This document shows, in pieces, positions 50,858-52,775 of a DNA stretch of 64,000 bases. The position numbers and the translations under genes were made by a program. The notes under the pieces are model-generated. The model was not told the DNA's origin and did no database searches. It saw only the letters and a list, made by a program, of their open reading frames with translations. Origin of the DNA: Brooklawnia cerclae (GTDB lineage Bacteria > Actinomycetota > Actinomycetes > Propionibacteriales > Propionibacteriaceae). Numbering within the stretch: the stretch's first letter is position 1; every line of letters begins with the position of its first letter. The stretch spans positions 434,001 through 498,000 of the forward strand of contig NZ_JAAMOZ010000001.1 of assembly GCF_011758645.1 (NCBI RefSeq). The letters run 5' to 3'.

Positions 50858-50905
50858 CTACGGCAATGGGTGGGACCTGGGTGAAGGTCCCACCCATTGC
50901 CGTAG
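50858..50905. terminator. 21-bp perfect hairpin after rplL
   Basis: Arms of 21 bp at 50858-50878 and 50885-50905 are exact reverse complements (begin CTACGGCAATGG, end CCATTGCCGTAG) around a GGGTGA loop. It is the longest perfect stem in the window and lies 24 bp after rplL. No T tract. It separates rplJL from the peptide/regulator module and from rpoBC. Confidence 0.8.
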
Positions 50906-50952: not shown

Positions 50953-51135
50953 TCACGGCCAAGGGCCGAGGGACAGGGGTCCGATCCTGATGGGAAAATC
51001 GCTGATCTGGCTGGAAGAGGCAGCGGACGCTGCCTTGGTCTCGTCGGGTGCGGCCGTCGCCTGCGCGATAGGCAACATCGTCACACCTACAAGGGCTGCT
51101 GCCGCAACGACCCGGGCGATCCTGGGCTTTTGCAT
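50953..51135 (-). CDS. Small secreted peptide, candidate pheromone precursor
   Basis: 60 aa. Classical Sec signal peptide: MQKPRIAR, hydrophobic VVAAAALVGVTMLPI, AxA site QATA before APDE. The predicted mature 32-mer is Ser/Ala-rich and then ends DFPIRIGPLSLGPWP. No Cys, no TM, no lipobox. GAGGAG lies 5 nt before the ATG. Its own promoter and flanking hairpins make it a single-gene transcript, divergent from an XRE-TPR regulator 161 bp away. This layout resembles pheromone/receptor pairs, so a signalling role is inferred; an antimicrobial or structural peptide is the alternative. No family recognised. Confidence 0.65.
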   Translation of the reverse strand: MQKPRIARVVAAAALVGVTMLPIAQATAAPDETKAASAASSSQISDFPIRIGPLSLGPWP

Positions 51136-51174
51136 CGGTGCTCCTCATTGACTGGTAGGCGATATCTGTCGTAC

Positions 51175-51211
51175 TGACTAGACAGTAGACACAATTTGAC
51201 TAGTGTGTCAA
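51175..51211 (-). promoter_or_regulatory. Promoter of the peptide gene with overlapping TGACTAG repeats
   Basis: On the minus strand TTGACA (51211-51206) and TACTGT (51187-51182) are 18 bp apart, with a start expected near 51175 and a ~40-nt leader. On the plus strand TGACTAG occurs at 51175-51181 and 51197-51203, exactly 22 bp (two helical turns) apart, one at the start site and one in the spacer. TTGAC/GTCAA inverted arms (51196-51211) overlap the -35. A binding site for the divergent regulator is likely. Confidence 0.6.
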
Positions 51212-51296
51212 TATGATCGCGACAAGTTCTTGGAGATCGGTCAAACGATGATGGGGCCGATAGTTGACAAGGGTCTCGGCGAAGGGAGCGACCGTC

Positions 51297-52532
51297 ATGC
51301 CTGCGGTAGGTGAACGCATCCGGGAGCTGCGAATTGCCCGCGGGCTCTCGCAGGCCGAGTTGGGAAGCGGGCGATATTCGGGCAGCTACATCTGTCACAT
51401 CGAGACGGGGCGCAGGCGTCCGAATACCGAGGTGCTCGACTTCCTCGCGGAACGCCTGGGGTTGGACGCCTGGGAACTCGACCCTGACAGTCAGGAGGCG
51501 GCCGACGCCGACATGGTCGCGCTCCTGGCGAGCGCTCGGCGCCTCGTGCGAACCCGGCAGTGGGACGAAGCGGCGCGCATGGCGACCAGGGCGTCGGTGA
51601 TCGCGGCCGGTGCAGGCCGCGAGATGCGCCGTTGGGAGGCCGACCATCTGGTCGCCCAGGCCCTCATGTCGGGTGGCCGGTACGACGAAGCCGCGGAGCT
51701 CGCTGCTGGTTTGGCAAGGCGTTCCTCGGTGGTGGGAGTGGCTGATCTGAGGGTCGAGGCCCATATCCTCGCCTCGCGCGCCCATCGCGCGTCCGGACGC
51801 CTGGCGGACGCGGCCTCGGAGGCGAGGGCGGCGTTGGCCGAGGCTGATCAGATCGATCCCGGACTGCTGTCGTCCGCGATCGTCGCGCTGCTGGCCGCCC
51901 TGGAAATGGCCGATTCGCCGTCCGACACCTCCGAACTGGAGACCCGGCTGGAGGGTCTCGTGGACATCCTCGACCCGTCGGACGCCTCGCAGGCCGCCTG
52001 GGCACTGGGAAACCTGGCGTTCGGCCGCGGTGACACCGAGGCCGGGATCGTCTGGCATCGCAGGGCGGGGGAGCTGTGCGACCCGCGGGCCGAGCCACAG
52101 ACCTGGGCGCGGATCCTCCAGGCGACGGCCTACTTCCTCGTGCAGTCGGGCGGCGACCTGTCACTGGCACGGCGCTTGTTCGAGGATTCGCGGCCGCTGG
52201 TGACACTGCTCGGAAGCCCGGGTGACCGGGTCGACATGCGCCTGGTGCAGGCGCGCCTCGATCTGCGAGGCGACGATCCGGAGGCCGCGGAGCGACTGTT
52301 GGACCATCTCCTGGGCGAGACAGCGACGCTGGACGACGAACGGCTCCGCGGCGAGGTGCTCGAATCGCTGGCGGAGGCGCGGGCGGTGCTCGGCCGCGTG
52401 GACGAGGCGAGGGCGGCGTTGCGGGAGGCCGCCGGCGCGTTCGAGGCGGCGCAGGCGCCGGTACGGGCCCTTCGGCTGTGGCACCGGTACGCAGAGTTGG
52501 AGTCTCCCGGAAACTGTTGTCAGCGGAATTGA
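51297..52532 (+). CDS. XRE-family HTH regulator with C-terminal TPR-like helical region
   Basis: 411 aa. HTH at residues ~5-58: VGERIRELRIARGLSQAELGSGRYSGSYICHIETGRRRPNTEVLDFLAERLGL. The rest (~75-400) is all helical and shows recurring TPR-like spacing (RQWDEAARMATRAS, GRYDEAAELAAGLARR, GRLADAASEARAALAEAD, GRVDEARAALREAAGAFEAAQ). HTH plus a TPR array of this length is the plan of RRNPP peptide receptors (PlcR, Rgg, NprR, ComR) and of some actinobacterial regulators. GGGAG lies 9 nt before ATG 51297; TTG 51264 is less likely. It probably binds the repeats in the divergent promoter. Confidence 0.75.
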   Translation: MPAVGERIRELRIARGLSQAELGSGRYSGSYICHIETGRRRPNTEVLDFLAERLGLDAWELDPDSQEAADADMVALLASARRLVRTRQWDEAARMATRASVIAAGAGREMRRWEADHLVAQALMSGGRYDEAAELAAGLARRSSVVGVADLRVEAHILASRAHRASGRLADAASEARAALAEADQIDPGLLSSAIVALLAALEMADSPSDTSELETRLEGLVDILDPSDASQAAWALGNLAFGRGDTEAGIVWHRRAGELCDPRAEPQTWARILQATAYFLVQSGGDLSLARRLFEDSRPLVTLLGSPGDRVDMRLVQARLDLRGDDPEAAERLLDHLLGETATLDDERLRGEVLESLAEARAVLGRVDEARAALREAAGAFEAAQAPVRALRLWHRYAELESPGNCCQRN

Positions 52533-52566
52533 CAGATCGGGTCAATCTCTGTTGGCATTGAGATCT

Positions 52567-52614
52567 CGACGACGGGCCGGGAAGCTATCCCCCGAGGCTT
52601 CCCGCTCGTCGTCG
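52567..52614 (+). terminator. Hairpin after the XRE-TPR gene
   Basis: CGACGACG...CGGGAAGC pairs with GCTTCCCG...CGTCGTCG, with two short internal mismatches, 35 bp after the stop. The remaining sequence up to rpoB (52615-52895) holds no gene; it carries the rpoB promoter and leader. Confidence 0.65.
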
Positions 52615-52775
52615 GGTTGGCCCTGGGGTGGGACGTCATGATGCCCCACCGGGGGTGCCCGGCCGCATCTGTCCGAGGTATGTCATTCTTGACGAGGCGC
52701 CGGGTTTTGGTGCAATGTGCTGCTGCCGGGTTGTTCGGTGACCGAAGCAGCAGGATCGAAGATGATCCTCAGGGG

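Follow-up and report, generated by a model that had tools for sequence, protein, structure and literature searches.

A conserved peptide-receptor gene pair between rplL and rpoB of Brooklawnia cerclae, probably an RRNPP-like signalling cassette

The divergent gene pair located between rplL and rpoB in Brooklawnia cerclae most probably encodes a peptide pheromone and its intracellular receptor, which would work in an RRNPP-like manner and govern the peptide gene and, probably, an RNA (probability of about 0.7). The analysis was performed on a window of 64,000 nucleotides (C1:434001-498000) of the 3.79-Mb genome of this species (G000). An earlier note had proposed an RRNPP-like signalling pair and had held that regulator homologues widely devoid of an adjacent small secreted ORF, or peptides varying at random, would speak against it. 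The proposal is supported by the conservation of the pair, the core of the peptide and the fold of the receptor, and neither of the two adverse patterns was found within the family of the host. To this proposal we add the peptide core G-x-[W/Y], the operators and the downstream RNA. The pair, its conservation, the operators, the promoters, the receptor fold, the co-occurrence of the components and the covariation of the RNA were computed. The following features were assigned in the window.

50858-50905, no strand assigned: terminator-like hairpin of 20 bp between rplL and the peptide gene
50953-51135, minus strand: pro-peptide gene, 60 aa, predicted Sec-type signal, C-terminus ..GPLSLGPWP (counterparts in other loci, motif control, dN/dS)
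51129-51135, minus strand: start of the pro-peptide gene, with a ribosome-site-like GAGGAG just 5' (read from the sequence)
51182-51187, minus strand: predicted -10 (TACTGT) of the peptide promoter, spaced 18 nt from the -35
51196-51211, no strand assigned: palindromic operator TTGACTAGTGTGTCAA, in which the TTGACA read on the minus strand (51211-51206) forms the -35 of the predicted peptide promoter
51297-52532, plus strand: receptor gene, XRE-type HTH (residues ~4-60) and about eight TPR-like helix pairs (63-400) (Pfam, AlphaFold, Foldseek, profile comparison)
52529-52545, no strand assigned: second palindrome TTGACAGATCGGGTCAA, overlapping the receptor stop codon, whose TTGACA is a predicted plus-strand -35
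52550-52558, plus strand: predicted extended -10, TGT TGGCAT, 18 nt behind the -35 of the second palindrome
52567-52664, plus strand: two stable hairpins with CCCC in the first loop (AUCCCCCGAGGC), the divergent form of the downstream RNA (folding compared with shuffles)

The small ORF and the receptor ORF are separated by 161 bp, and the coordinates, lengths and divergent layout previously given for them were all borne out. Insulation of the pair by hairpins was likewise confirmed, with one hairpin 3' of rplL (50858-50905, T-rich tail on the minus strand) and the pair of hairpins behind the receptor gene (52567-52664). Among 57 relatives, nine in addition to G000 encode a full-length homologue of the receptor (E <1e-30). 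Thirty-five loci were obtained by scanning named genomes; L071, a weak match of 40 residues, was dropped, and the other 34 were used. Unless otherwise stated, counts refer to these 34 loci and the window, the loci of the remaining genomes, several of which are from the same species as the named ones, being left out. The 34 loci belong to Brooklawnia, Propionicimonas, Propionicicella, Micropruina, Desertihabitans, Auraticoccus, Ca. Avipropionibacterium and, outside the family, Curtobacterium sp. ISL-83; all are from Actinomycetota. The gene rplL is directly upstream in 29 of the 35 loci, and rpoB is also visible downstream in 26 of these 29. rplL was not seen at L062, L064, L065 and L070, and the sequence of L061 is too short to judge. 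The pair had been described as foreign to the ribosomal and polymerase cluster: its recurrence next to rplL makes it a standing resident there, and what stands of the description is that the receptor is present in just 35 of 198 family genomes (E ≤1e-15). The neighbours of pairs located elsewhere (L064, L065) did not reveal any target gene in common.

The small ORF of the window (MQKPRIARVVAAAALVGVTMLPIAQATAAPDETKAASAASSSQISDFPIRIGPLSLGPWP) has an intact divergent counterpart, with secretion predicted from the sequence, in 33 of the 34 named homologous loci, one of the scans behind this tally having required G.[WY] and the others not. At the 34th locus, in Micropruina SSC1, the signal part and a GEWP core are found in two frames of a metagenome-derived chromosome. 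The tail as a whole is not conserved, and the stretch between the signal and the core varies among the ORFs. Conservation is found in the core, which consists of G-x-[W/Y] followed by P or Y and is represented by GQGNWP, GQGDWP, GFGEWP, GEGWWP, GDGNWK, GEGHWK, GQGSYP, DHGVWP and SEGMWP, with SLGPWP in the window. At four of these loci and one further locus (G012), the core is repeated three to five times within one precursor: five copies of AGGGIWPK in G012, four of GEGNW in Curtobacterium (L065), and three of GIWY in L063, L069 and L070. Repetition of the core with variable spacers points to a short mature peptide of approximately seven residues, and the repeats suggest what this peptide is likely to be in many species together. 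Desertihabitans aurantiacus harbors two receptor-peptide pairs with different repeated cores, GEGIWY and DRGIWY (L063 and L070), and offers a natural test case for signal specificity.

The significance of the small ORF was assessed by two approaches. An ATG-initiated ORF in which G-x-[W/Y] follows an N terminus of signal type, located divergently within 500 nt upstream of the receptor, was detected in 32 of the 35 loci, as opposed to none of 1050 dinucleotide shuffles and three of 2462 other 500-nt stretches from the same loci, with a motif that was picked after the peptides had been inspected. Among the 25 closest pairs of sequences, which overlap, the dN/dS ratio did not exceed 0.50 in 22 and amounted to 0.51, 0.68 and 0.92 in the remaining three. 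The small ORF is under protein-level constraint. The corresponding region was also inspected in relatives lacking the receptor (25 genomes searched, one of them without rplL found, leaving 24 loci of which 23 had sequence to examine; L152 was dropped, having nothing behind rplL, and L167 offers only 216 nt there). Neither a divergent core-bearing secreted ORF nor a TTGAC-N5-7-GTCAA palindrome was present at any of these 23 rplL loci. The first count of this set took only ORFs of 36-110 aa with an ATG or GTG start and a strong hydrophobic stretch.

A palindrome of the form TTGAC-N5-TGTCAA was found within 450 nt upstream of the receptor gene in 29 of the 35 loci, where it overlies the -35 of the predicted peptide promoter. 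On the peptide strand, 27 of 32 loci have a TAnnnT located 17 or 18 nt behind TTGACA; the remaining spacings between 10 and 26 nt yield one match in total. A palindrome near the receptor stop codon is present in 25 of the 35 loci, and each of these 25 belongs to the 29 loci that have rplL upstream. In 17 of 24 loci (L042 left out), TGn+TnnnnT lies 17 or 18 nt behind the TTGACA of this second palindrome, as opposed to three matches for 14 other spacings tested. These results predict two promoters, one for the peptide gene and one directed toward the region preceding rpoB, each with a -35 embedded in a palindrome of the same type. The exact operator matches the G000 genome once, at 51196-51211, and the reversed control pattern twice. 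In 12 genomes, 12 of the 14 distinct sites fall within this locus, 10 of them preceding the receptor gene and two at its stop codon, and two sites are elsewhere; the reversed pattern gave seven matches in the same genomes. Thus, no wider regulon was seen in the exact-operator search of G000 and of these 12 genomes. Upstream of the receptor gene of the Streptomyces-like loci L109, L110 and L111, TGGCAA..TTGCCA palindromes, of the TTGGCA type, replace TTGAC..GTCAA, indicating that the operator changes with the clade.

The receptor is a protein of 411 aa, with its ATG at 51297. Pfam assigned it an HTH_31 domain (1.2e-9, above the cut-off) and TPR matches below theirs; PHROGs and NCBIfam matched it at the HTH level only. 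An AlphaFold model built from a 59-row homologue alignment (mean pLDDT 94.7, pTM 0.88) consists of the HTH, a linker helix and approximately eight helix pairs. The top Foldseek matches of this model are eukaryotic TPR proteins of the LGN type. Among the 50 hits listed, PlcR in complex with PapR7 and DNA ranks 27 (E 2.6e-5), with a poor global superposition (TM 0.31/0.41, rmsd 13.9), and complexes of Rap with pheromones appear from rank 42 on; among the listed hits close to PlcR, domain III of MalT has the best TM (0.62/0.68). Comparison of the family profile with PlcR gave an E of 3.7e-6 over positions 3-179, corresponding to the HTH and the first repeats, designed and other TPR proteins scoring better. 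Five residues located on A helices (R164, W235, W270, R272 and D310) are invariant in all 32 family rows. L042, L067, L069 and L070 were left out of alignment A2. Conservation is slightly higher for A than for B helices (1.78 versus 1.98 bits). According to the TPR pattern, as distinct from coordinates, the invariant residues would line the groove of the superhelix. The earlier note also called for a search for oligopeptide importer genes: the B. cerclae genome gave 15 matches to binding proteins of the SBP_bac_5 type.

Directly behind the second promoter, we found a candidate RNA comprising a short hairpin with a C-run in its loop followed by a long hairpin with CCUCCC in its loop, the latter motif being present in all 19 aligned sequences (alignment A3, 19 of 25 loci; left out are the window, L049, L051, L054, L056 and L059). 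Double changes were observed in 11 of the 21 pairs. The covariation score was 0.449 versus 0.235 for shuffled alignments (none of 500 reached it) and no more than 0.165 after sliding of the pairing; for a weaker measure that takes in further pair types, 21 of 500 shuffles were as high. The RNA model R1 gave a single match in each of 22 out of 197 family genomes, always on the strand of the receptor gene and 44-75 nt behind it, and all 22 are among the 35 genomes encoding the receptor. R1 was built from most of the matched species, and the telling facts are consequently the lack of matches elsewhere and the match in Propionicicella (G030), which is absent from the model. There was no R1 match in the remaining 13 receptor genomes, including the RNA of the window itself and g7. 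The corresponding region of the window forms two hairpins on folding (z -2.95, none of 200 shuffles being equally stable), and its first loop is identical to that of Propionicicella; owing to the two-hairpin fold and the shared loop, the RNA of the window is probably a divergent member.

Rfam gave no match near the RNA in five loci, and for the stretch of the window it gave nothing over E 0.5 bar one unrelated weak match. Identity with the 6C RNA (RF01066) was rejected, there being no match at the curated threshold and none in 10 genomes searched, with a model that may be insensitive here as it picked up just one of 14 control genomes. Structural variants were observed behind the receptor gene of other loci. 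In L049, L051, L054, L056 and L059, there are three hairpins, with CCCCC in loop 1 and without CCUCCC. In L037, a Brooklawnia MAG that is the closest relative of the window, the place of the two hairpins is taken by a long stem around three runs of C (CTCCCCCC, CCTCCCCCC and CACCCCC).

The search for the receptor was extended to the class, in which 88 of 394 genomes gave a match (E ≤1e-15). Twenty-nine further loci were sorted by visual inspection, with the weak ORFs of L108 and L119 scored as none and L113 truncated at the edge of its contig. A divergent secreted ORF containing W is present in 13 of the 29, a divergent CC-ended ORF without W in five and a co-directed CC-ended ORF in one, and none was seen in 10. 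The W-containing peptides comprise GNWPDPM repeats (f6), DIEWP, DISWP and DIGWP (f22, a large-genome family), ends in xWPxMCC on ORFs of ~42 aa (f23), NWPKCC and LDWPWI. Repeats also occur outside the family of the host, with two to three copies of GNWPDPM in L101 and L102 and of xWP in the Streptomyces-like loci L109-L111. The f23 receptor faces ORFs of ~40-54 aa ending in ..WPxMCC or ..CC at L112, L114, L117, L120, L121 and L122, and the same kind is seen at L118, L124, L126, L127 and L128; judging from these sequences, the paired-cysteine ends possibly define a second peptide class. On the receptor tree, the peptide class requires eight changes, as opposed to a mean of 25.1 for shuffled classes (0 of 200 as low), a relationship that shared descent alone may also produce. 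Variation of the peptides is not random, given the conserved core and the agreement of peptide class with receptor tree. The outcome is mixed as regards regulators without an adjacent peptide gene: this situation is not encountered in the family of the host (33 of 34 loci intact, one frameshifted), and it is encountered in the wider class, in the 10 loci mentioned above and in Streptomyces plasmids, where a secreted W-peptide ORF is missing from the vicinity of all six homologues examined, out of 36 records.

These plasmid homologues (L176-L181) are HTH-TPR proteins encoded inside biosynthetic clusters with condensation domains, ketosynthases and phosphopantetheinyl transferases, and they may listen to peptides made elsewhere. 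The f23 receptor was found in 15 plasmid records, and neither the Curtobacterium nor the f6 receptor was found on plasmids. The Curtobacterium receptor gave two matches at E ≤1e-25 among 396 phylum genomes. Carriage by phages was rejected, phages having given no match and viral contigs none that was confirmed.

The proposed mechanism is as follows. The product of the small gene would be exported by Sec as a pro-peptide and processed outside the cell to a short peptide that spans the G-x-G-x-W-[P/Y] core (..LSLGPWP in the window). Oligopeptide importers would take up the peptide, and the HTH protein encoded next to the small gene would bind it in the inner groove of its TPR superhelix. The receptor is predicted to occupy the TTGAC palindromes over the -35 of the peptide promoter and over the promoter at its own stop codon. 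It would act there as a repressor, and the peptide would release it from both promoters; repression is favoured because both -35 elements lying under the operators are perfect TTGACA. Release would establish a positive loop for the peptide and switch on the transcript behind the receptor gene, in many relatives a putative two-hairpin RNA with C-rich loops and in the window its divergent version. A more specific proposal, which we advance tentatively and hold at somewhat less than even odds, is a pheromone circuit with a small-RNA output: a G-x-G-x-W-P heptapeptide-type signal would lift repression from two TTGACA palindromes flanking the receptor gene, and an RNA of ~100 nt with the loops CCCCCC and CCUCCC (anti-Shine-Dalgarno) would act on many mRNAs, the system being one clade of phylum-wide peptide codes (GxGxWP, GNWPDPM, DISWP and WPxMCC).

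The mode of action of the receptor and the role of the downstream promoter were weighed against other explanations. The receptor might be an activator whose peptide-bound form recruits the polymerase to the palindromes. PlcR and Rgg are peptide-dependent activators, and the palindromes are indeed located at promoters. We nevertheless consider activation rather unlikely, since the palindrome overlies a perfect TTGACA -35 with the -10 at 17-18 nt, an arrangement more like that of a repressed promoter. The downstream promoter might also be that of rpoBC, with the hairpins as its leader, in which case the peptide signal would tune the synthesis of RNA polymerase. This promoter faces rpoB with no gene between, a hairpin lies upstream behind rplL, and the cassette is exactly there in the 26 loci with both neighbours seen. 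However, the rpoB frame or motif begins ~390-850 nt behind the palindrome, leaving space for a promoter of its own, and there is no conservation behind the second hairpin; furthermore, relatives without the receptor transcribe rpoB without the cassette, and at L062 and L064, located elsewhere, the pair works without rpoB. A separate RNA is favoured over an rpoB leader because rpoB is distant and conservation is lost behind hairpin 2, and we regard the leader as distinctly improbable.

It is very doubtful that the small gene encodes a bacteriocin or a peptide of the cell surface, with the HTH-TPR protein as its ordinary regulator that senses something else. Bacteriocin pairs share the layout of a divergent regulator and a small secreted ORF, and secretion of the peptide is a prediction. 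Yet no immunity or modification gene is present beside the pair, three to five copies of a seven-residue core with variable spacers suit a cut-out signal better than a toxin of 30 residues, and the protein has a TPR fold with conserved A-helix residues. Finally, GC-rich DNA yields short ORFs by chance, and a non-functional pair with a chance frame would then result. The shuffles, the control stretches and the dN/dS values reported above refute this explanation for the family, and its probability is negligible.

The preferred reading remains a peptide pheromone paired with an intracellular receptor. The conserved pair and a readable peptide code across several actinobacterial families would open the phylum to experiments with synthetic peptides and reporters. 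If the RNA behind the receptor gene is the output, a peptide-to-small-RNA switch becomes directly testable; if the small-RNA reading is true, an RRNPP-like sensor has been wired to an RNAIII-like effector.

Peptide signalling through intracellular HTH-TPR receptors is regarded as a trait of Bacillota, quorum sensing in actinobacteria relying mainly on small molecules of the gamma-butyrolactone type, according to the portions consulted of a survey and of a review of actinobacterial quorum sensing (PMC10075063; PMC4748050); another review covers quorum sensing (PMC13220807). The same survey, performed with RRNPP_detector, deals in its consulted portion with Firmicutes and viruses only and describes actinobacterial signals as typically small molecules (PMC10075063). 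One Streptomyces was searched for signalling peptides, and the excerpt consulted mentions no strong candidate (PMC11019849). The term "actinobacteria" does not occur in the excerpts of PMC9765709 and PMC11343458. Open-licence full texts, a body that leaves out preprints and most subscription journals, contained no report of such a system in Actinobacteria.

The pair is not classed as an RRNPP member despite its RRNPP-like working. The RRNPP(A) systems of Bacillota comprise PlcR-PapR, NprR-NprX, Rgg-SHP, ComR-XIP, Rap-Phr and AimR. As in these systems, Rap excepted for the HTH, the receptor combines an HTH with a TPR superhelix, of five to nine repeats there, as excerpted from PMC9765709, and about eight here. 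A gene for a pro-peptide of predicted secretion is adjacent in both cases, here in the window and at 33 of 34 loci, and multi-copy pheromone pro-peptides occur in both (excerpts of PMC9765709 and PMC11343458). The differences are the phylum, RRNPP(A) having been described from Bacillota whereas these loci are from Actinomycetota, and, in the present system, the obligate aromatic residue of the core, the operator TTGAC-N6-GTCAA, the fixed rplL-rpoB site and the RNA gene behind the receptor. Streptomyces plasmid HTH-TPR regulators have the same receptor architecture and are 51-55% identical to the receptor of the Streptomyces-like locus L110. The 6C RNA of Actinobacteria (Rfam RF01066) consists of two hairpins with C-rich loops. 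By this description the downstream RNA resembles it, RF01066 itself being without a match. The agr-RNAIII system of Staphylococcus is based on a membrane kinase and a cyclic peptide, its output being a structured RNA with C-rich loops. The cassette would share with agr-RNAIII a peptide signal whose output is a structured RNA with C-rich loops, and it differs from it by an intracellular HTH-TPR receptor and an RNA of ~100 nt.
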